Shown one piece after another: positions 8,335-30,548 of a stretch of 49,385 bases of DNA (its first letter is position 1; each line of letters starts with the position of its first letter). Source of the DNA: Nitrososphaerota archaeon. GTDB lineage: Archaea > Thermoproteota > Nitrososphaeria > Nitrososphaerales > Nitrosopumilaceae. Both the position numbers and the translations under genes were made by a program. The stretch lies in contig JACZSC010000002.1 of the NCBI GenBank assembly GCA_022574415.1, forward strand, positions 1 to 49,385. Reading direction: 5' to 3'. Below the pieces are notes generated by a model. It was not told the origin of the DNA and searched no databases. It saw only the letters and a program-made list of their open reading frames with translations.

Positions 8335-10446
8335 TTATTTTTCTGATTTGATTTTTATTTTTGGTTTATCATGTTTTTTCTTTTCTGGTTGAATCACACT
8401 TTGTTCTAGGGTGTATTGTTCCTGAGTAAACATTCTCACACTTCCGAAAGGAGTGAACTTTATTCCATTACCTTGATAAAATTTGGAAAAGAATTCAACG
8501 TAAAGCAACCTCGCACTCTGAATACCAGGTACAAAGACTCCAATTACAATATTGAACATATGCCCTATAAACAAGATCAATATGCCAAGAATGGCAAATG
8601 GAATTGAAATGTTTAGTGCTTTTAAGAAAATGAAATCTGTAGTATGTGCAAGGATGACTGACGCTAGCAAAATTCCAACCAGTCTAGTATAGGAAAGTAT
8701 GTGGCTTACAATAGATGCCAATTCCATTATGGCTCTACCGCCTTCGCCAATAACCATTAATCCAATTCCTCCAAAAAGTAATCCATAGTACAAATATGCA
8801 ACAGGATTGACTTCGATAAGCCTTGGCCACGTTGGATTGAGAGCATCTCCATGAATTAGAGCCAATCCAAATAGAACAACTCCCCAACCAAATGCTAGCC
8901 AACCAATTTTTGTAATAATTACTTTTTTTTCGCCTTCTCTTATAGCGTTCAATATACCTAGAATTAGACCAAATGATACCATTCCAATGCCAGTGTATCC
9001 AGCAAAGAGCAGAAGTTTGCCTACATTTTCAACTGGATCAAAAAATGCTTGTGAAGGTCTGTTTAATACCGCACCTGGTTCAGGAAAACCAGTAACTCCA
9101 AAACTGGCTAGAAAGTCAAATGCGTAACCGTTAAGATGGAATCCGAAATATAAGTCAAAGATTACTCCTAAAATCATACCAATGACACAGCCAGGAATCA
9201 TTGCCTTGGCTAATTTTACCATCTGTCTTTTTTTCAATATCATTAATCCAAAACTTCGCAGTTGTTTTGGCATTATGGTTAGATTACGCTTTCCTTTCTC
9301 AACACGTCTGATAACCCATAAACAAACAAGAAGTATTACCAGACAATAGCCAACATCACCAATCATTAATCCATAAAATACCGGGAAAATAAAAGCGAAG
9401 ATCATAGTAGGATCAAATTCTTTGCTTTGCGGCAGAGAATAGAATCTAATGAATGCCTCAAACAATCTCAGCCCTTTTGGGTTACTTTGCAACGTAGGAG
9501 GTTTCTCCTCTGTTTCTAATTCGTAAATGGTTGTACCACGAGTATGTTTTTGTAAGGTTGTTTCAATTTGGTCAAGTTTGGGTTTTGGAACCCAGCCCTC
9601 TAATGCAAAGGCATCATTGGTAACACCTAGATTAGAAATAACTTCAAGTTTTTGGTTTTCAATTGTTAACTGTTCTTCAAGCTCTATTAAAGTCACATAA
9701 TGCTGTTCTGAAATTTTAGTTAGTTCTTCATTGATTTGTCCAAGTTTTTGTTTAAAGTTTTTAAGATGACTTTTTTGTTTTGTTATTATGTCAGTTGGTT
9801 TTCCATCAAGGTTTGGAACTACTTCTATTTTGACATCATGTGTTTGAATAATATTGGCAAAAGCATCAGATGGAAAACTTGGAAACACGACAAGTACAAG
9901 ATATGTTACATCTTTTTCTGGTTTTGAATAAAGAAAAATGTCTTGCTTGTATTCTTGAAGAACCTTGTTGAATTCTTCAAATTTTTTTGATGGAATTCTA
10001 CCAAAAAAAGAATTTGCAGACGATAATTGAAGAATTTTTAAATCTTCAGGGAAAAAGACAAATTCTTCTAGTAATTTGATGTTATTCTCAGTGTCTTTAA
10101 TTTCTGTGAGTACTGATTCTCTTTCTTTTTCAAGAGTGGAAACTTTATCATCAATATCGACTGAAGCAGCAGTTTGTAACAGTTCCTCGGTTGAAGTAAA
10201 ATGTTTACGTTCTGTTACTGGAATTGCAGGAAGAGTTGTCAATAATGCCTTGACTCGTAGAAGTTGATCTGAAATTTGGCTTGTTAATTTACCATCACGT
10301 TCATTTCTAAGAAGCGAGGAAACATCTTTTGATAACGGTTCTAGTTGTAAAACTTGAAGATCGTGTAGTATGGATACTACTGGTTGTCTAAATTTTCTTA
10401 AACCTAGAATAGCTACACGAGCCATCGGTACAGGTTTAAAACCCAT
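8335..10446 (-). CDS. atpI: A-type ATP synthase subunit I (a-subunit)
   Basis: A 703-aa membrane subunit that forms the ion half-channels with the c-ring and acts as part of the stator. Residues 1 to about 350 are a hydrophilic, coiled-coil-rich cytoplasmic arm, and the rest contains about 7-8 membrane helices. The helix containing SYTRLVGILLAS carries the Arg expected to be essential for ion translocation in V/A-type a-subunits. The C-terminus is basic (KKKHDKPKIKIKSEK). Its ATG overlaps the stop of subunit H (TAATG). It is the last gene of the ATP synthase operon. Confidence 0.95.
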   Translation of the reverse strand: MGFKPVPMARVAILGLRKFRQPVVSILHDLQVLQLEPLSKDVSSLLRNERDGKLTSQISDQLLRVKALLTTLPAIPVTERKHFTSTEELLQTAASVDIDDKVSTLEKERESVLTEIKDTENNIKLLEEFVFFPEDLKILQLSSANSFFGRIPSKKFEEFNKVLQEYKQDIFLYSKPEKDVTYLVLVVFPSFPSDAFANIIQTHDVKIEVVPNLDGKPTDIITKQKSHLKNFKQKLGQINEELTKISEQHYVTLIELEEQLTIENQKLEVISNLGVTNDAFALEGWVPKPKLDQIETTLQKHTRGTTIYELETEEKPPTLQSNPKGLRLFEAFIRFYSLPQSKEFDPTMIFAFIFPVFYGLMIGDVGYCLVILLVCLWVIRRVEKGKRNLTIMPKQLRSFGLMILKKRQMVKLAKAMIPGCVIGMILGVIFDLYFGFHLNGYAFDFLASFGVTGFPEPGAVLNRPSQAFFDPVENVGKLLLFAGYTGIGMVSFGLILGILNAIREGEKKVIITKIGWLAFGWGVVLFGLALIHGDALNPTWPRLIEVNPVAYLYYGLLFGGIGLMVIGEGGRAIMELASIVSHILSYTRLVGILLASVILAHTTDFIFLKALNISIPFAILGILILFIGHMFNIVIGVFVPGIQSARLLYVEFFSKFYQGNGIKFTPFGSVRMFTQEQYTLEQSVIQPEKKKHDKPKIKIKSEK

Positions 10447-10775
10447 TATTCCATCCCTTTCAGCAAAATGTCGATGATTTCTTGAGTTTTTTGTGTAGTT
10501 ACGTGTGAAGAAACATTTTCAGCTTTAGACTTGGCATCTTGAATTACTTTCTCTGTTTCTGTATTGGCCTTTTTTCTTGCTTCTTCTATACTAGAGTCAA
10601 CAAGTTTTTCGCCTTCTGCTTTAGCATCAATTATTGCTTTTTTTAGGTCAGCATCTAACTGACTAATTTTGTTATCGGTCTCTTTTCTATGGTTTTCAAT
10701 TTCTTTTTCAACTCCTTCCTCAACTTCCTTTATCTTCTTCAGAGAGCTGATGTATTGTTCTTGTGAAGTTGACAT
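10446..10775 (-). CDS. atpH: A-type ATP synthase subunit H (peripheral stalk)
   Basis: A 109-aa protein that is nearly all alpha-helical coiled coil, rich in Lys, Glu and Ala, as expected for the H chain that pairs with subunit E to form the peripheral stalk. It has no membrane segment. It starts at ATG; its stop overlaps the start of subunit I (TAATG), consistent with translational coupling. Assignment rests on composition, length and position in the operon, because H chains diverge quickly. Confidence 0.8.
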   Translation of the reverse strand: MSTSQEQYISSLKKIKEVEEGVEKEIENHRKETDNKISQLDADLKKAIIDAKAEGEKLVDSSIEEARKKANTETEKVIQDAKSKAENVSSHVTTQKTQEIIDILLKGME

Positions 10776-10777
10776 AA

Positions 10778-10846
10778 TTACACACCAAGAAATTCTTTAG
10801 TTAGATACAGAATGACAAAAATTGCTATGACGATATTACCTGTCAT
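10778..10846 (-). CDS. Possible 22-42 aa single-pass membrane peptide within the ATP synthase operon
   Basis: An unlisted short ORF fills the gap between atpD and atpH. From the ATG at 10846 it encodes 22 aa (MTGNIVIAIFVILYLTKEFL then GV), essentially one membrane helix. The frame is open upstream to a TTG at 10906, which would give 42 aa with a basic N-terminus (QQKKFYFIKRAI) and overlap the end of atpD. The stop is 2 nt before the atpH ATG. The basic-then-hydrophobic layout and operon position suggest a small membrane protein, perhaps an accessory ATP synthase subunit, but this is inference. Confidence 0.4.
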   Translation of the reverse strand: MTGNIVIAIFVILYLTKEFLGV

Positions 10847-10895
10847 AATTGCTCGTTTTATAAAGTAGAATTTTTTTTGTTGAGGATTTTTAAAA

Positions 10896-11558
10896 TTACT
10901 TTGCAACTAATGCTGCCTCCTTTTTAGCTTGTTCTCTTTCACTCATCTTGCGTTTTACAGTCTTTAACATGGTAAACGTATCACGTTCAATTTCGCCTAG
11001 TCTAAATAGAATGAATTTAACAGCTGCTTGTAATCCTGGAATGAAGACGTTTTCAATTGCGTTAGCCTTTCGTTTTGTCTTTTCAATTTCATAGAGAAGT
11101 TTTCGTAATGTTGTCTCTTTTTCTGCAACATCCAAGACAATTTTATGAACTTCTTGGAAAGCTTTGATAGCTTCGCTGATAGAAACTGGAATTTCTAATA
11201 GATATTCGGTAAGTGCTTGCTCTCTTCTTCCTCCCTCCAATCTTGGAATTTTAACGCCCATGATGTTTTTTGGTGTGATAAGTAATTTCTTCAGTTGTGG
11301 AATTTTCATTGCCTCGTTTTCCAATCTCATCTCACCATCAAGCATTTCTGCCATTCGTATACTTTGGTAACCTTTGATAAGCTCAGAGTTTAATTCTCCC
11401 CGCAGCCTGGCTGATGACTTGCTGATTTTAAAAAATTCAAAGATCAATGCTTGACGTTTAAGCTTTAACAGCTTGAGTCCTTTTTCTGCAATTTTGATTC
11501 GTTTTTTTGCACGTAAGTATTCAAGACGTGTAGGACGAATGTCGGTACTTATCGGCAG
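10896..11558 (-). CDS. atpD: A-type ATP synthase subunit D (central stalk), apparent non-AUG start
   Basis: The central rotor shaft subunit, 220 aa if started at CTG 11558. The coding frame clearly includes the family N-terminus (IRPTRLEYLRAKKRIKIAEK, then GLKLLKLKRQAL), followed by long helices with GVKIPRLEGGRR and a C-terminal ETTLRKLLYEIEKTKRKANA region. Between that N-terminus and the upstream in-frame stop there is no ATG, GTG or TTG; the only candidates are CTG (11558), ATA (11552) and ATT (11540). A perfect AGGTGAT ribosome-binding site ends 5 nt before the CTG. Taking the first TTG (11447) would delete 37 conserved residues. It follows atpB by 11 nt. Confidence 0.9.
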   Translation of the reverse strand: MPISTDIRPTRLEYLRAKKRIKIAEKGLKLLKLKRQALIFEFFKISKSSARLRGELNSELIKGYQSIRMAEMLDGEMRLENEAMKIPQLKKLLITPKNIMGVKIPRLEGGRREQALTEYLLEIPVSISEAIKAFQEVHKIVLDVAEKETTLRKLLYEIEKTKRKANAIENVFIPGLQAAVKFILFRLGEIERDTFTMLKTVKRKMSEREQAKKEAALVAK

Positions 11559-11563
11559 CCTTT

Positions 11564-11570
11564 ATCACCT
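11564..11570 (-). promoter_or_regulatory. Ribosome-binding site AGGTGAT deciding the atpD start
   Basis: AGGTGAT on the minus strand matches the complement of the conserved 16S rRNA 3' end (ATCACCTCC). It ends 5 nt before CTG 11558 and 11 nt before ATA 11552, favouring the CTG. It overlaps the last base of the atpB stop codon. Confidence 0.7.
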
Positions 11571-12973
11571 TACTCTGATTTTTTTGTGTCACCGGTACTA
11601 GTCTTCTTTGCATATTTTGCAATAAATTCTGGTTTAATACGAGTTAGTTCTGTTTCTGAAAGACCACTTAATAGATCCCAACCAATTGAAAGCGTTTGTT
11701 CTATAGAACGATTCTCATCAAAGCCTTGGTTAACAAACTTTTGCTCAAAGTTGTTTGCAACACCAAGGAATTTTTTATCTAAATCACTTAGGGCACCTTC
11801 ACCCACTATAGCAGCTAATGATCTTGCATCCTTACCTTGAGCATATGCAGAATAAAGTTGATCTGCAAGTTGTCTATGATCTTCTCGTGTTCGTCCTTGA
11901 CCAATCCCCTTGTTCATTAAACGTGATAAACTTGTTAGGACGTCAACTGGGGGGTGAATATTTGCTCTATGTAATTCTCTGCTCATTACTATCTGACCTT
12001 CAGTAATGTAACCTGTGAGATCAGGAATTGGATGTGTAATATCATCAGCGGGCATAGTAAGAATTGGTATTTGTGTCACTGAACCTTGTCTACCCTTAAT
12101 TTTTCCCGCACGTTCATAAATTGAAGCCAAGTCAGTATAAAGATAACCAGGATAACCTCTTCTTCCAGGAACCTCTTCTCGCGCTGCAGCGATTTCTCTT
12201 AATGCTTCACAATAATTTGTCATGTCCGTCAAGATAACTAGAACATGCATTCCACGTTCATATGCAAGAAATTCCGCTGTAGTTAACGCAAGTCTAGGAG
12301 TAAGTATACGCTCCATAGAAGGATCAGAAGACAGGTTAAGGAACAAAGCAGTTCTTTCTAATGCTCCACTTTCTTCAAATTGTTTAATGAAATAGTTTGA
12401 TTCCTCGCTAGTAATTCCAATTGCTGCAAATACAACAGAAAAGCTTTCTCCAGTTCCAAGAACTTTTGCCTGTCTTGCGATTTGGGCTGCAAGTTGGTTA
12501 TGTGGTAGCCCAGAGGCAGACATAATTGGTAATTTTTGACCTCTTACCAACGTATTCATTCCATCAATATTTGATATTCCTGTTTGAATGAATTCTGATG
12601 GTTCTTCTCGAGAATATGGATTAATACCAGCACCTACTAGATCAAGCTTTTCTTTTGATACAATCTTTGGACCATTGTCTCTAGGATTTCCGAGTCCATC
12701 AAATACTCTTCCAAGCATTTCATCAGAAACTGCTAACGTGGCAGTTTCGCCAAGGAATTTTGTAGAAGTGCCGGTAGTACTCAAACCAATTGTTGGTCCA
12801 AATACTTGGATTACAGCTAACCCTTGACTGGTATCTAAAACTTGGCCCTGTAGTCTTTCTCCATCTGGCAATTTTATTTCTACCATTTCACCGTATGCTG
12901 CGTTATCTACTCCTTTGACAAATATTAGCGGTCCTGCAATCTTGTCAAGTGTTTTGAATGAAACATTAGACAT
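11570..12973 (-). CDS. atpB: A-type ATP synthase subunit B (non-catalytic)
   Basis: A 467-aa non-catalytic nucleotide-binding subunit that alternates with subunit A in the A3B3 head. It has the beta-barrel N-domain and a central nucleotide-binding domain in which the P-loop is replaced by [18 protein letters not shown], as is normal for B subunits. The [17 protein letters not shown] and [11 protein letters not shown] segments near the catalytic interface are conserved. The start ATG overlaps the atpA stop by one base (TAATG). Confidence 0.97.
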
Positions 12974-14748
12974 TAGTTAGAAATCTCCTTTGAAAGATTA
13001 TCAAATTCTTGTTTCATCTTGGATTTAATGTCATTAACTAGCTGTTCCAGTTGATCCTCTTTTGTCCATTTCATTTTTGGTATCATTCCTCTTGATGTAA
13101 GTGAAGATGCATTTGCAGCAGTAATTCCTTTCTTTATTGCATCAGCTTCCAACCTACCAAATTCTAAAATGATTTGTAACATCTTGTATTGTTTCTGAAT
13201 TGATGTGTAAGTATCAACTTCATCGAATGCACTTTGTTGTAGGTAATCTTCTCGAATAGAACGGGCAATATCTAAAACACCTTTTTCTGGTTCAGGAAGT
13301 GCATCGTATCCTACTAACTGAACAATTTCTTGTAATTCTGATTCTTTCTGTAAAAGTTCTAACGCCTCTTTTCTAAGATCGATCCAGTCCTTAGAAACAT
13401 TAGATTTGTACCAATCAGCCAGATCATCAACATACAAAGAATAGCTGGTCAACCAGTTGATTGCTGGGAAGTGTCTTCTATTTGCTAAACTAGCATCTAG
13501 TGCCCAGAAAACACGAGTAACTCTTAATGTATTCTGTGATACTGGTTCGGAAAAGTCTCCGCCAGGTGGAGAAATGGCACCAATTAAGGAAAGGGAGCCT
13601 ATGCGTTCTTCAGGAGAAATTAGAATACTTTTTCCACTTCTTTCGTAAAATTCTGCTAGTCTTCTACCAAGATAAGCTGGATATCCTTCTTCACCAGGCA
13701 TTTCTTCCAATCTTCCTGAAATTTCTCTTAATGCTTCTGCCCATCTTGAAGTACTATCTGCCATAAGTGCAACACCATATCCCATGTCACGATAATATTC
13801 ACCCATTGTAATTCCAGTATAGATACTTGCTTCTCGTGCAGCTACTGGCATGTTTGAAGTATTAGCAACTAGAATAGTTCGTTCCATTAGAGGTCGTTTT
13901 GATTTTGGATCTATTAGTTTAGGAAATGATGTAAGTACGTCACACATTTCATTTCCTCTTTCTCCACAACCAATGTACACAATTATTTCACTGTCTGCCC
14001 ACTTTGCAAGCTGTTGTTGAATTACTGTTTTTCCACTTCCAAAGGGACCAGGAATTGCACCAGTACCACCTTTTGCCATTGGAAAAAAGGTATCAATAAT
14101 TCGTTGACCTGTAATTAATGGTTCTTCAGGTGGAAGCTTTCTCAGAACGGGTCTAGGTGTTCTAACTGTCCACCAACTTGATAAACCAATGTCAGTTGTT
14201 TTACTATTCTTTACAGCTGCAACATTGTCATTAACAGTGAACTGTCCTTCTGAAATATCTACAAGTTCGCCAGAAAGATTATGTGGAATCATAATTTTGT
14301 GTTTGATTAGTGGAGTCTCCTGAATCTCACCAATGATTTCACCGGGCGCAACCTGTTCACCTTTTTTCTTAACTGGAATGAAATCCCATTTTTTCTTTTG
14401 ATCTAGTGCAGGAATCATTTTTCCTCTGCTGATAAAGTCTCCACTTTCTTCTCTTAAGACATCCAAAGGTCTTTGAATTCCATCAAAAATTGAGGTTAAC
14501 AGTCCAGGACCAAGCTGCATAGAAAGTGGTCTGTTTGTATTTACTATTTTTTCTCCAGGCTTTAGACCTGTAGTATCCTCATAAACTTGAATCTGAGCAG
14601 TATTTCCTTCTAAACGAATGATCTCACCCACAAGACCCATTTCACCAATACGAACAATATCAAACATTCGTGCACCTTCTAGACCCTTAGCGGCAACAAC
14701 AGGACCCGAAATTCTAGTAACTATAGCATCCGTCAATACTGTCGTCAA
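12973..14748 (-). CDS. atpA: A-type ATP synthase subunit A (catalytic)
   Basis: The 591-aa catalytic subunit. P-loop GPFGSGKT lies at residues 234-241; the non-homologous insertion characteristic of A subunits precedes it (about 110-200). GCGERGNEM, the Walker B region [20 protein letters not shown], and EEGYPAYLG are all present. Ordinary length, no intein. It starts with TTG in a TTGA overlap with the stop of atpF; a second TTG four codons in is the alternative. Confidence 0.97.
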
Positions 14749-15101
14749 CTTATCTCCATATTTATTCCAAGTACGCGCTTTGCCAAAGCTGCTATTGATT
14801 CTTCGTCTTCCACAGTGGTCTCTTGTTGAGATGGCATAAATAGTACCAATGGTTCGATCGATCCTTCAATTTCTGACAAAAATTTTTTAGAAAGTCGTGA
14901 TCGTACTGAGTCACTTGCAATAATTAAACCAAATTCACCAGAGGAATAAAGCTCTTGAATTTTATTTCCTGCATCTTCATCACTAGAGATGAAAGTGTCA
15001 TCTATTCCAATTAGACGATAGCCTATTACAAGCTCACGATCACCAACAACAGCAAGTCTGCCAGAAGATTCGATCTTTTCTTTTGATGCCAGTTCGCTCA
15101 A
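14745..15101 (-). CDS. atpF: A-type ATP synthase subunit F (central stalk)
   Basis: A 118-aa subunit of the central stalk with a CheY-like fold, seen in the N-terminal LAVVGDRELVIGYRLIGI and FGLIIASDSVRSRL segments. F subunits are normally about 100 aa, so the N-terminus is slightly extended. The start is TTG in a TTGA overlap with atpC, and its stop forms another TTGA overlap with atpA. Confidence 0.92.
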   Translation of the reverse strand: MSELASKEKIESSGRLAVVGDRELVIGYRLIGIDDTFISSDEDAGNKIQELYSSGEFGLIIASDSVRSRLSKKFLSEIEGSIEPLVLFMPSQQETTVEDEESIAALAKRVLGINMEIS

Positions 15102-16162
15102 ATCAGTAACATCTCCCTTATCTTATCTGGTGAAAAGTTGTATCGTTTTCCATATGCAATTCTTTTTAGATTTTCATGTTCATATTCAGCATTGATAGTG
15201 AAATAGAAAATAGTTCCAATAGATAATGCAATGTTTTTCAATTTCTTCACATAGTTATTATTGATGAATTGTGTTATAGCTATCTCAAAATCAATCAAAT
15301 TTTTTGTAGTCTTGAATTGTTCCAGTACATCGCCAAGTTTGTAATAAGAATCAATTTTTGATATAATTTCAGTAACATCTTTAACTTCATAAATATCAGT
15401 CAAATCCTTCGTAGGTATTCTTCCACCTTCAACAAGATGGTTAACAACAAGTTCCTTGTCGACATCGGATTCTTTTGCTTTTAGGAGGGTTAGAATGTTT
15501 TTTTTATCTATCTCAGCACGAATTAGTTCTCTAATAATGCCTTCATCACCTTGAAAGAATTTTAATGATTCAAGTAACTTTTGATAATATGATGCATGCA
15601 TTGCAGACATCATTGGTCCAAGATCACCTGTCTTTTGAAATTCATCTAGGTACTTCATCAATTCCACACCATAGTCATACTTTGCAAGTTTGTTAACAAC
15701 ACCTTCAACTCCTGATTCGGAAAGAATGATCTTAATCTCATCGTGTGAAATATTACCGGCTGCAATTCCTGCTGGTATATTTCTACTAGAGACTAGCATT
15801 GATTCAGTTTCTGTGATTGTTCTTCCCATCATTTTAGAAGAAAGAATTAGTTCAATGTTGTAAAGATCCCACTTTGACAAATAAGCTCTGACAGCATTTT
15901 TGCCACTAAAAGGTGCGGACTCTAAAATGATTTTGTTAATCATAACTAGATGGCGATTAAGTGCAACTTCTAAAAGTAATGGGCCTTGATAAACTGATGC
16001 TGCTTTTTTAATTTCTTCACCATACCAAGTTGGTTCTAAAAGTTTGATCATATCATTTACATCATCTGCTTTCAATAGGCTTTCCAAAAATTCTGGTTTA
16101 AGAAAACTTATTGATATTGATTGTAACTTACCAAAAGAAGATGAATATGGAGATGAACCCAT
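15098..16162 (-). CDS. atpC: A-type ATP synthase subunit C (d-type rotor adaptor)
   Basis: A 354-aa all-helical subunit that couples the central stalk to the membrane ring. The three-lobed helical pattern, the NAEYEHENLKRIAYGKRYN C-terminal signature and the length match the archaeal AtpC/V-type d family. Its ATG overlaps the atpE stop (TAATG). Confidence 0.92.
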   Translation of the reverse strand: MGSSPYSSSFGKLQSISISFLKPEFLESLLKADDVNDMIKLLEPTWYGEEIKKAASVYQGPLLLEVALNRHLVMINKIILESAPFSGKNAVRAYLSKWDLYNIELILSSKMMGRTITETESMLVSSRNIPAGIAAGNISHDEIKIILSESGVEGVVNKLAKYDYGVELMKYLDEFQKTGDLGPMMSAMHASYYQKLLESLKFFQGDEGIIRELIRAEIDKKNILTLLKAKESDVDKELVVNHLVEGGRIPTKDLTDIYEVKDVTEIISKIDSYYKLGDVLEQFKTTKNLIDFEIAITQFINNNYVKKLKNIALSIGTIFYFTINAEYEHENLKRIAYGKRYNFSPDKIREMLLI

Positions 16163-16719
16163 TACAAAATCTTCTCCAAAATTGTAGTCTTGATATCATC
16201 TTCGTATGTTCGCAGTAATTCCTCAAATGTTAGATCAATCTCCTTGGTACCATTACTGTTTTCCACGATAATACCTCCTAAGGTTTGAATTGAAGAACCA
16301 ATTGTGATCCCCTTTGCTTTTAAAGTAGACTCATCTTCTTTGCGACAATGTATTGTTATTTTATCATCAAAGGTTTTTTTTGCAGTGGATACCATTTTCT
16401 CTAAAACTTTCTTGTATTCTGTAGTTTTTGTGTAGTTAGCAAGTTCCTGCTTTATCACATCAAACGTAGAATCGAGATTTTTGTTTATTGCTTTGAATAA
16501 AATCTTCTTAGCCTCTAATTTGCTAGCCTCAACTATTCTAGATGCTTCTTTTTCAGATTTTGTTTTAGCTTCCTTAGAATAATGTTCTTGGAGTTCCTTT
16601 ACGGCTGTGTTTTTTTTAGTTTCGATTTCTGATTTTTTATCATCAAATTCTTTGTCAATATCAGAAATGTCTTTTTTTTTTCTGTTCTCGATCTCATCTA
16701 AGAAGATGTCTATACTCAA
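16162..16719 (-). CDS. atpE: A-type ATP synthase subunit E (peripheral stalk)
   Basis: A 185-aa subunit with a long N-terminal coiled coil (about 1-95, rich in Lys and Glu) and a globular C-terminal domain ending in LTFEELLRTYEDDIKTTILEKIL. It pairs with subunit H in the peripheral stalk. The start is TTG, preceded by GGAGAA at suitable spacing; the gene begins 10 nt after the atpK stop. Confidence 0.9.
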   Translation of the reverse strand: MSIDIFLDEIENRKKKDISDIDKEFDDKKSEIETKKNTAVKELQEHYSKEAKTKSEKEASRIVEASKLEAKKILFKAINKNLDSTFDVIKQELANYTKTTEYKKVLEKMVSTAKKTFDDKITIHCRKEDESTLKAKGITIGSSIQTLGGIIVENSNGTKEIDLTFEELLRTYEDDIKTTILEKIL

Positions 16720-16729
16720 GTTCTTCTCC

Positions 16730-17062
16730 CTAGAGTATATCTAGTAACAGAATAATTCCTAGAACGAAACCAATAATCCATAGTGTTTCTGGAATTACAA
16801 AGAAGAATAGTACCTGTCCAAATTTTTCAGGTTTTTCTGCAATAATACCCATACCAGCTGCTCCAATTCCTTGTTGTGCACTACCAGTACCAATCAGTCC
16901 ACCAGCAATTGCAATAGAAGCAGCTAAAGCCAAAATAGGTTTAGACAAGTCACCACTAGATGAACCTTCTGCTGCAAATGCAGGTAGTGGAGCAAATGTA
17001 AATACTAACAAAGATGCACCAATAATTATACTAAAAATTGAAACTTGTTTCCGCGAAACCAT
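16730..17062 (-). CDS. atpK: A-type ATP synthase proteolipid subunit K (c-ring)
   Basis: A 110-aa proteolipid. Residues 1-31 look like a cleavable signal (ending APLPAFAA), followed by the two-helix hairpin: helix 1 at about 42-72 with GTGSAQQGIG, helix 2 at about 84-108 with the ion-binding carboxylate Glu92 in VIPETLW. The Gln pair at 63-64 and Thr93 after Glu92 are residue types that help coordinate sodium in some c-rings, but this cannot be decided from sequence. First gene of the ATP synthase operon; the ATG is about 25-35 nt from the TATA-like TTAATATAG upstream. Confidence 0.95.
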   Translation of the reverse strand: MVSRKQVSIFSIIIGASLLVFTFAPLPAFAAEGSSSGDLSKPILALAASIAIAGGLIGTGSAQQGIGAAGMGIIAEKPEKFGQVLFFFVIPETLWIIGFVLGIILLLDIL

Positions 17063-27359: not shown

Positions 27360-28664
27360 TTAGCTTGTTTGAGTTGCTTTTTGCTTTCGTTTTTTAATTT
27401 GTAAATATGCAAATATTCCTATACTAGCTACTATTGGTAAAATTATCAATTGTGAGGGATCAAGATCAGATTTTTGACTTTTTGATAGATCGTTTACAAA
27501 AATTGTTGTATCATAAATAATGAACTTCTCATCACGAAGTGAATCTTTGTATCGTACAGTAATTCTAATATCATGCTCACCATATTTTGTTTCACCGTCA
27601 AATTCTAATGGCATATTAAATGGGACGGGGGAATCAGTGCCTATTTCGTCAATAAATTGGGTTAATGGTATAATATTAGAATCACCCATTGATTCTAGTG
27701 TGACAAATCCGAATAAAGCGTCCTCATTTCCTTCGTTAATTATTTCACCAATTACAGTTGGTTTTCCTGACAAATCAATAACTCTTACATCATAAATTTT
27801 TGCATCGATTAATCCTTTGATGTAGAAATCGACAATTCGAGAAATTGTCTGTCGATCACCATGCGCGTTAAAATAAGTTAACTCCATTGGAATACGTAGT
27901 GTTTCACCTTTTAGTGATTCGGGGATGAAGATATCAGCTTCTAGATATTTTGAAGTTCCAGGATTAATGTGGCCAATGTCCCAGTTTGTGTCAAATATGA
28001 CAACCTTTTCAATATTTGTAACTGATGTGGTAGTGGATGAAATTGCCGTTGCAGTATTTGTTGCAACAATGTCTACACCAGAAATAGGAGCTGTTCCATC
28101 ATTTGATACTTCAATTACAATATGATTTGTTTGTAAAGAAGTCAAAAATGGATCAAGTGCACGCATGTTAATGATACTATCACCAGTTACTTTGAAATCA
28201 AAATCAAAAAATGCATTTCTGACTCCAGATTCTCTTAATCTAGAATAGTCAACCTTAATCGAGCCGGGATATCGTTTAATTTCAAGATCATCACCAATAT
28301 TGACAAAAAATGTCAGGGTAAAGGTATCACCAGCAACTGAACTAGAATCGCTGTCAGCCAGAATTAAAGAACCAACTCCATCTGCCGAACTAAAACCAAA
28401 TGACAATGAAAGTTGTCCTCTAATTCCTGTGATATCCTGTGTTCCTACGTTCGCCAATACTACAGTAAATGGTACATTTCTATCACCCGGATCTACTTCC
28501 ATTTTTTCATCTGGTATGCCAAAAAATGCATCGAGATATTTTACATCACCAAATTTTCGTTCAAACGGTGAATCACCAGTACTGACTTGAGCAAATACAT
28601 CTAGAATGAATAATTGTGAAATTACTAGTACGACAATTAATGCAAGTAATGAAAATTTAATCAT
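27360..28664 (-). CDS. Secreted CARDB/S-layer-like protein with C-terminal membrane anchor
   Basis: A 434-aa exported protein: signal peptide (about 4-25, ending DVFAQ), several extracellular Ig-like domains of the COG1361/CARDB kind (phrases such as VVLANVGTQDITGI, EVSNDGTAPISGVDI and GEIINEGNEDALFGF), then one membrane helix (about 409-425) and a short Lys-rich cytoplasmic tail. It is in an operon with an ABC ATPase and a MacB-like permease; its ATG overlaps the ATPase stop (ATGA). This order suggests it works with the transporter, perhaps as its extracellular partner. Confidence 0.82.
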   Translation of the reverse strand: MIKFSLLALIVVLVISQLFILDVFAQVSTGDSPFERKFGDVKYLDAFFGIPDEKMEVDPGDRNVPFTVVLANVGTQDITGIRGQLSLSFGFSSADGVGSLILADSDSSSVAGDTFTLTFFVNIGDDLEIKRYPGSIKVDYSRLRESGVRNAFFDFDFKVTGDSIINMRALDPFLTSLQTNHIVIEVSNDGTAPISGVDIVATNTATAISSTTTSVTNIEKVVIFDTNWDIGHINPGTSKYLEADIFIPESLKGETLRIPMELTYFNAHGDRQTISRIVDFYIKGLIDAKIYDVRVIDLSGKPTVIGEIINEGNEDALFGFVTLESMGDSNIIPLTQFIDEIGTDSPVPFNMPLEFDGETKYGEHDIRITVRYKDSLRDEKFIIYDTTIFVNDLSKSQKSDLDPSQLIILPIVASIGIFAYLQIKKRKQKATQTS

Positions 28665-29368
28665 GTTGCGACCTCCATTGGCTTTGGTTCCTCACCATCA
28701 ATTGCACGACCATCTGTGATCGTGATTACTCGATCTACATCACCAAATTGCTCTTTTTCATGTGTAACTATGATGAATGTTTGATTTAGTTTCTTAGCCA
28801 TAGATTTCATAAGTTGTATTATGGTTTTAGCAGTAATAGAATCTAGATTTCCAGTTGGTTCATCTGCAAGAACAATGGATGGATTATTTATCAAACCTCT
28901 TGCGATTGCTACTCTTTGAGATTGACCGCCAGAAATTTTATTTGCACGCTTATTTAGTTGATCCTGGAGGCCTACAGATCCTAATAGCTCCTTCGCATCA
29001 TACTCTGCTCCGTTTTGTGTTCTCTGTATATTTCTAGGAAGTATTACGTTCTCTAAAACAGTTAGATCTGCTAGAAGATTTGAAGATTGAAAAACAAATC
29101 CTAGTTTATCATTTCTAAATGAAGAGATTTCATCATCATTAAGTTTTGATGTATCAATTCCGTCAATGAAGACTTTACCACTAGTTGGTCGATCTAGCAA
29201 ACCAATCATATTCAATAGAGTGGATTTACCAGAACCTGAGCTCCCAACAACTAAAATAAATTCTCCTTTGTTAATACTGAAAGAAACATCACGTAAAGCT
29301 TTGACCTTGGTTTCACCTTCACCATAAGTTTTGTGTAGATTTTTGATTTCAAGGACTTTATCAGACAG
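28661..29368 (-). CDS. ABC transporter ATP-binding protein (MacB/LolD type), apparent CTG start
   Basis: A 235-aa ATPase. The N-terminus reads SDKVLEIKNLHKTYGEGETK, with Walker A GSSGSGKST further on, then SGGQSQRVAIARGL and Walker B IVLADEPTGNLDS, as in LolD/MacB ATPases. The frame from the upstream stop codon to Walker A contains no ATG, GTG or TTG. A CTG at 29368 has GGAGGCGAT ending exactly 5 nt upstream. Starting at the first TTG (29215) would remove Walker A and destroy the enzyme. The CTG lies inside the last codons of the permease gene (8-nt overlap). Confidence 0.92.
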   Translation of the reverse strand: MSDKVLEIKNLHKTYGEGETKVKALRDVSFSINKGEFILVVGSSGSGKSTLLNMIGLLDRPTSGKVFIDGIDTSKLNDDEISSFRNDKLGFVFQSSNLLADLTVLENVILPRNIQRTQNGAEYDAKELLGSVGLQDQLNKRANKISGGQSQRVAIARGLINNPSIVLADEPTGNLDSITAKTIIQLMKSMAKKLNQTFIIVTHEKEQFGDVDRVITITDGRAIDGEEPKPMEVAT

Positions 29369-30548
29369 CTCTTATCGCCTCCACAGGTTGAAGTTTTGTA
29401 GCTCTGTAGGCCGGATAGATTGAGGCAGTGATTGCTAACCCAAATGACATAAAAGCAGTCTGAATAATTTTGGGCCAATTATAGGTTACTTCTAATGGAA
29501 TACTCCCCTCCCATGACATGTTAGTTTCTTTAGCATAGAATGTATATCCTAAACCCGCGGCAGTTCCAACGCTTGCGCCAATAATACCAATTATCACCCC
29601 CTGTAACAAAAATAAAATCAGAATATCTTTTCTCTTTGCTCCAATTGAACGCATTATTCCAATTTCTCTAGTTTTACTTGAAACAAGCATCATCTGAATT
29701 GTTACAATGGCAAAAGCAGAAGACATCATTCCAAAATATCCGATCATGTTGATCATTCCAATACCAGATCTAAAACCACGTAACGTTGTTTCTGCGGATT
29801 CCTCTATAGTCTCAGCTTCAAAATCATCATTTGGAAATGATGCCAGAAAGAAATTTTTTACATCTAATGCTTTTGTACGATCATTTAATTTCACTAGAAA
29901 TGAGCTAGACTTGCCATCGCGATCAAGCATGTCTCTTAAAGTATCAATATGTATCAATACACTATTATCGAATCCTTGACCGCCAGCTGAGGTGGAAATG
30001 CCACTTATGATGAATTGTTTTGTTTGATCTTGGCCCCAACGATCAACAACTTTTAGTTTTACACTCTCTCCTGGTTGAAGACTCCCTAATTCTTGTGCAA
30101 TCCATGAACCCAGTACAATTGAATTTCTTGAAAAAACGTACTGGCCATCAGAAATAGTTTCATGAGCTGTAGATGTTCGAATGTCTCGTAATGGATCAAC
30201 CCCTAAAATCGAAACTTTAGTTTCTTCAAACCTTTCACCGTATTTTGTTGCGTTGATAGAAGCTATCGATGACAGCCGTGGCGTTACTGCTTCCACATAT
30301 GGTATTCTTTCAAACCAGTTTACTAGTGATAAATCAGATTTGTCAATGAAATCTTCTTCGTCAGTGATGTAGATATCGCCAAATCTATAATCAGACATGT
30401 CTCGAATAATTGCATCATAGAGGCCTTGGAAAATTACAAAATTAACGTGAATTACCAAAATTCCAATTGAAACCGCCAAAACTGCTCCAATCAAACTTCC
30501 TTTTTTGTTTGACAACATTCTTAGCGCTAAATTGAGTCTGTAATCCAA
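29361..30548 (-). CDS. ABC transporter permease (MacB/FtsX/LolE type)
   Basis: A 395-aa membrane protein with the FtsX-like layout: one N-terminal helix (about 17-40), a large extracellular domain (about 45-270), and three C-terminal helices with the cytoplasmic coupling segment SSKTREIGIMRSIGAKRKDI. It pairs with the downstream ATPase. Such transporters move lipoproteins, peptides or drugs across membranes or transmit mechanical force; the substrate here is unknown. The start is TTG; a TATA-like AATATATTAAATATC lies about 35-50 nt upstream. Confidence 0.88.
   Translation of the reverse strand: MDYRLNLALRMLSNKKGSLIGAVLAVSIGILVIHVNFVIFQGLYDAIIRDMSDYRFGDIYITDEEDFIDKSDLSLVNWFERIPYVEAVTPRLSSIASINATKYGERFEETKVSILGVDPLRDIRTSTAHETISDGQYVFSRNSIVLGSWIAQELGSLQPGESVKLKVVDRWGQDQTKQFIISGISTSAGGQGFDNSVLIHIDTLRDMLDRDGKSSSFLVKLNDRTKALDVKNFFLASFPNDDFEAETIEESAETTLRGFRSGIGMINMIGYFGMMSSAFAIVTIQMMLVSSKTREIGIMRSIGAKRKDILILFLLQGVIIGIIGASVGTAAGLGYTFYAKETNMSWEGSIPLEVTYNWPKIIQTAFMSFGLAITASIYPAYRATKLQPVEAIRAV
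29374..29382 (-). promoter_or_regulatory. Ribosome-binding site GGAGGCGAT deciding the ABC ATPase start
   Basis: GGAGGCGAT differs by one base from the full complement of the 16S rRNA 3' end (GGAGGTGAT). It lies within the end of the permease gene and ends 5 nt before CTG 29368. Confidence 0.65.

Follow-up and report, generated by a model that had tools for sequence, protein, structure and literature searches.

A conserved CUG start predicted for an ABC transporter ATPase gene that overlaps its permease gene in Nitrosopumilaceae

Termination-reinitiation at overlapping gene pairs has been shown in Haloferax volcanii and in Escherichia coli (Huber et al. 2019, PMC6728339), and among overlapping pairs the -8 nt NTGNNTGA spacing is enriched (PMC12548453). 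In the pairs described in this way (PMC6728339; review PMC12548453), as in the junction analyzed here, two co-directional genes overlap for a short distance and a Shine-Dalgarno sequence lies within the first of them, but those pairs use ATG, GTG or TTG, whereas the junction here mostly carries CTG. Initiation at CUG has its own precedent in bacteria, where this codon makes up about 0.024% of initiation codons and, in E. coli, supports about 0.86% of the initiation obtained with AUG (PMC11497404). Bacterial CUG starts resemble the present one in that near-cognate initiation follows a Shine-Dalgarno sequence and presumably employs methionine; the present one differs in being archaeal, in being conserved over a whole family and many genera, and in lying inside an overlapping gene pair. 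Literature searches for CUG/CTG or other non-canonical starts in archaea or Thaumarchaeota, which covered only a minority of subscription papers, turned up no conserved one. With respect to gene content, the closest systems are those of the LolCDE/MacB type (TIGR02211 LolD, TIGR02212 LolCE, PF12704 MacB_PCD), which likewise pair a separate ATPase with an FtsX-like MacB_PCD permease, but whose equivalog models have curated cut-offs that the genes here do not reach; the MacB of NF007826 is moreover a fused protein, whereas here the ATPase has a gene of its own that follows the permease gene.

The permease-ATPase junction

The window, by which we mean the whole stretch of 49,385 nucleotides that was analyzed, holds the features collected in Table 1.

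Table 1. Elements and genes of the cluster around the CTG start, with their positions in the window
Feature	Positions	Strand	Remarks
ABC ATPase CTG start codon	29366..29368	-	NTG 85/85, CTG 70; 133/250 family genomes by pattern; invariant overlapped synonymous site
Shine-Dalgarno GGAGGCGAT	29374..29382	-	within permease gene, 5 nt ahead of CTG; 8/9 match to complement of 16S 3' end
TAA stop in ATPase frame	29372..29374	-	upstream bound on possible starts
FtsX-like permease with MacB periplasmic core domain	29361..30548	-	Pfam FtsX 6e-20, MacB_PCD 8e-17; stop TGA 29363-29361
ABC ATPase, LolD/MacB class, (M)SDKVLEIKNLHKTYG... as read from CTG	28661..29368	-	ABC_tran 1.3e-34; LolD TIGR02211 6e-74
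Downstream neighbor in operon-like cluster, secreted/membrane-anchored protein	27360..28664	-	without Pfam or NCBIfam match

The permease gene ends GTG GAG GCG ATA AGA GCT GTC TGA, and the ATPase frame, which is +1 of the permease, reads TGG AGG CGA TAA GAG CTG TCT GAT AAA GTC CTT GAA ATC, that is, the TAA stop, the single codon GAG, the CTG, a TCT and then the conserved protein. The original prediction had singled out this CTG as the only sensible initiator, which is borne out by the stop one codon upstream and by the way in which CTG, ATG, GTG and TTG replace one another at this site among family members. It had also placed the Walker A motif ahead of the first canonical start, and indeed Walker A begins at residue 41 while the first in-frame ATG, GTG or TTG is a TTG at codon 51, counted from the CTG. 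The further proposal that the start lies in the last codons of the permease needs a partial correction: the CTG does fall inside the permease end, but the overlap is limited to the last 8 nt, CTGTCTGA.

The Shine-Dalgarno sequence was found exactly at the 5-nt distance that had been proposed. The 3' end of the genome's own 16S rRNA (G000:C135) predicts AAGGAGGTGATCC, with which GGAGGCGAT agrees at eight of nine positions, and a scan of both strands of the window returned a single site for GGAGGNGAT/GGWGGTGAT. An identical spacing had been claimed for atpD in the same stretch, where the order GGTGAT-AAAGG-CTG likewise leaves 5 nt.

When the ATPase is read from the CTG, its alignment to the LolD model TIGR02211 begins at profile position 1. 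At 248.2 bits against a required 307.75 it misses the equivalog cut-off of that model, and the MacB model NF007826 (cut-off 966 bits) is missed by both the ATPase (199.3 bits) and the permease (37.8 bits). The ATPase had been described as MacB-like; because its best scores are with LolD models and yet fall below every curated cut-off shown, assignment to a LolD/MacB class is safer. The downstream neighbor adjoins the ATPase gene elsewhere in the family too.

Conservation of the start codon within the family

A search of 101 relatives and genome contigs yielded 85 distinct Nitrosopumilaceae junctions. Candidates were recognized by an NTG with a Ser, Ala or Pro codon directly after it, a pattern that no homologue in the set failed. 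At the homologous position CTG stands in 70 of these junctions, ATG in 12, TTG in two and GTG in one; the comparison of relatives that had been suggested as a check thus places an NTG at the same codon throughout. The GAGG core lies exactly 9 nt upstream of the NTG in 85/85, and the layout of NTG, two codons and a stop is conserved. Since an in-frame stop occurs no more than three codons upstream of the NTG in 70 of the 85 junctions, no other initiator is left there, and no homologue turned up in which a more distant upstream ATG in a different frame would serve.

When 250 family genomes were scanned by pattern, the CTG version appeared in 133 of them, representing 15 of 22 genera. A reversed control pattern gave almost no matches, and a few of the CTG matches look like chance. 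About 62 likely true junctions with another start (ATG 35, TTG 24, GTG 3) were chosen by eye from the matches on the basis of conserved permease context, TTG being common in one genus. At this site the more distant members of the family (L215, L217-L221) show ATG, TTG, GTG or CTG, and the junction of L216 is altered; a permease/ATPase junction with such an overlap was not found in the other families of the order. One genome, G020, carries two permease-ATPase junctions (C13, C22) that differ in their start codon, GTG in one copy and ATG in the other. On the tree of permease and ATPase the start codon changes state at least eight times, CTG being found on deep branches and ATG at several unconnected points. 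The predicted CUG start is, by this comparison, an old and family-wide state in Nitrosopumilaceae.

The permease codon overlapped by the start tells more about how this state is maintained. It reads ACT in 62 junctions, TAT in seven, TCT in six, AAT in five, GCT in two, and ATT, TTT and AGT in one each (n = 85), such that the amino acid varies while the third base is T in every case, and the next codon always ends in C. Elsewhere in these permeases, Thr, Ser and Ala codons are not restricted to a final T, and ACT amounts to 43.5% of Thr codons. Across 151 fourfold-degenerate permease columns the commonest base reaches 59% in the median column; three columns are invariant, and two of these three are the codons overlapping the start. 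Because the control columns were drawn from the same sequences, shared ancestry does not explain the invariance at the start, and the comparison shows the CTG site to be under purifying selection.

Alternative readings and the case for coupling

The original prediction had itself named a sequencing error at 29366-29368 as a hazard, and the genome is indeed a draft of 149 contigs. However, the same CTG is found in three genomes of the same genus (G001, G002, G003), in public MAG contigs and altogether in over 130 genomes of the family, some of them complete and in a single contig, which refutes an error of sequencing or assembly and brings its probability practically to zero. It might be argued instead that the ATPase truly starts at a downstream ATG, GTG or TTG and that the part upstream is conserved as DNA alone, given that a canonical codon of some kind does precede Walker A in 41 of the 70 CTG homologues. 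The position of that codon nevertheless varies among relatives, 30 of the 41 lack a Shine-Dalgarno sequence, and in the remaining 29, the window included, there is no canonical codon before Walker A. Furthermore, the upstream codons change synonymously: over the first 30 ATPase codons, compared between two genera, 27 residues are identical, nine of these with different codons, and three are replaced. We therefore regard a downstream start as very improbable. A programmed +1 frameshift at GTC TGA, which would yield a permease-ATPase fusion, is scarcely more credible. In bacterial prfB, programmed +1 frameshifting operates with an upstream Shine-Dalgarno-like sequence, and the ATPase frame here is likewise +1 of the permease with a Shine-Dalgarno sequence upstream of the stop. 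Yet the permease stop varies (TAA 51, TGA 19, TAG 14), the codon preceding it is GTC, GGC or GCC, and ATG, GTG and TTG stand in for CTG at the exact codon, for which frameshifting would have no need. The NTG in all 85 junctions, the fixed GAGG spacing and the invariant T together make a strong case against all of these readings: a sequencing error, a start upstream or downstream of the CTG, and a +1 frameshift. Translation of the ATPase from a CUG start located in the final codons of the permease gene is, in our judgment, very probable.

A subtler possibility is that the CTG is the start but is kept passively, because a penultimate Thr, Ser or Ala in the permease (codon xCT) forces CTG upon the overlapping frame, in which case initiation would be of the ordinary Shine-Dalgarno type with no regulatory role. 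This would agree with the fact that the CTG junctions encode Thr, Ser or Ala, whereas those with ATG need Asn or Tyr and those with TTG need Ile or Phe, and with the predominance of Thr at this residue across the family. The constraint is not strict, however, since Asn, Tyr, Ile and Phe are tolerated in relatives and one genus commonly uses TTG; moreover GTG, which could be reached via Ser AGT, is rare. We would give passive retention a little less than an even chance.

Coupling of the ATPase to the permease by reinitiation is the account that we favor, with some confidence. A ribosome finishing the permease at UGA would be held by the GGAGG Shine-Dalgarno sequence about 9 nt ahead of the CUG and would then reinitiate at this codon with initiator Met-tRNA, whereby permease and ATPase would be made together. 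Initiation of the ATPase would consequently depend on termination of the permease, methionine would be inserted at the CUG, and the weakness of the start would keep the ATPase dependent on permease translation. The overlap CTGTCTGA belongs to the -8 nt NTGNNTGA class; because this class is enriched among overlapping pairs and reinitiation has been shown in H. volcanii and E. coli, termination-reinitiation at the NTGNNTRA (-8 nt) overlap, guided by the GGAGG Shine-Dalgarno sequence, is taken as the most likely route to the CUG. Given how poorly E. coli initiates at CUG relative to AUG, good expression would presumably call either for ribosomes that are coupled or concentrated at the site or for an archaeal machinery of greater tolerance. 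RNA structure at the junction had no consistent stability (z-scores from -1.6 to +1.4), leaving a model based on unfolding without support.

The length of the Shine-Dalgarno pairing offers a further lead. Raw counts associate it strongly with the start codon (54 of 70 CTG junctions versus 1 of 15 non-CTG junctions), as do those for the rare Ala codon GCG in VEA(M/I)R, which lengthens the pairing (53/70 versus 1/15) and which accounts for 7.9% of the Ala codons in the rest of the permease. With the pattern scans included, GGAGGCGAT, formed via this GCG, is present in about 75% of CTG junctions versus about 24% of the others. On the tree, however, independent pairs gave p values of 0.06-0.38, which are not significant, and many ATG junctions of one genus (g19) also have GGAGGCGAT, such that the association is only a lead. 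It is tempting to speculate, though we think it rather unlikely, that in Nitrosopumilaceae the weak CUG serves a purpose, restricting synthesis of the ATPase almost wholly to ribosomes fresh off the permease, with a longer Shine-Dalgarno sequence compensating, and that the machinery of the family tolerates near-cognates (CUG here, ACG in the Lrp-type gene described below) better than that of bacteria.

Other near-cognate starts in the family and implications

Statements on whole genomes rest here on samples of 400 kb from each of three other genera plus the window. These samples gave no sign that CTG starts are in general use, since a Shine-Dalgarno sequence of at least 6 nt accompanied in-frame CTG codons at no more than the background rate (5/674). 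A comparative scan of the same material found CTG opposite ATG or GTG at a conserved start in this ATPase gene only, and conserved coding ahead of any canonical start stood out clearly in just two genes, this ATPase gene and an Lrp-type gene with an ACG start. Four other pairs with putative coding upstream of a canonical start were weak or ambiguous and were set aside, as was a first, looser scan that was swamped by antisense shadow ORFs.

The Lrp-type gene encodes a small Lrp/AsnC-like regulator (L222-L251, e.g. G031:C1:165237-165407, minus strand) with a conserved ACG start, in the motif aggtgttttaaACG or ...tagACG, at 9 of 30 loci in several genera; the other loci show ATG, GTG or TTG there, and the window's own genome has GTG (L248). 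This ACG is a second, independent near-cognate start, analogous to the CTG of the ATPase. The V-type atpD of the window, too, appears to start with CTG (11555-11553; site 11553-11566, minus strand), 5 nt after GGTGAT; G001 is the only other genome to share this CTG, and other V-type atpD genes have GTG, ATG, TTG or perhaps ATT. CTG also occurs in the A-type atpD homologues L137 (G018; relatives ATG) and L135 (G063; relatives TTG/GTG), which suggests that CTG starts arose more than once in atpD as well. The ATP synthase cluster of the window (8335-17062, minus strand) has a subunit D of a type common to only some family members; two congeneric genomes, G002 and G003, match it at no more than about 26-31% identity, which suggests that the ATPase operon was replaced or transferred inside the genus. 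In sum, the near-cognate starts indicated by these comparisons in Nitrosopumilaceae are real but few.

Taken together, the evidence provides good support for a family-wide, selectively maintained archaeal CUG start, one that would combine two known things, initiation at CUG and coupling through gene overlap. The natural replacements by ATG, GTG and TTG at one codon represent a ready-made comparative experiment on the acceptance of near-cognates in archaea, and the same junctions bear on the effect of a weak start in a coupled gene pair. Throughout a widespread family of ammonia-oxidizing archaea, gene finders limited to ATG, GTG and TTG shorten the ATPase, often with loss of Walker A; most of this family appears to share the CTG start with the ammonia-oxidizing archaeon of the window.
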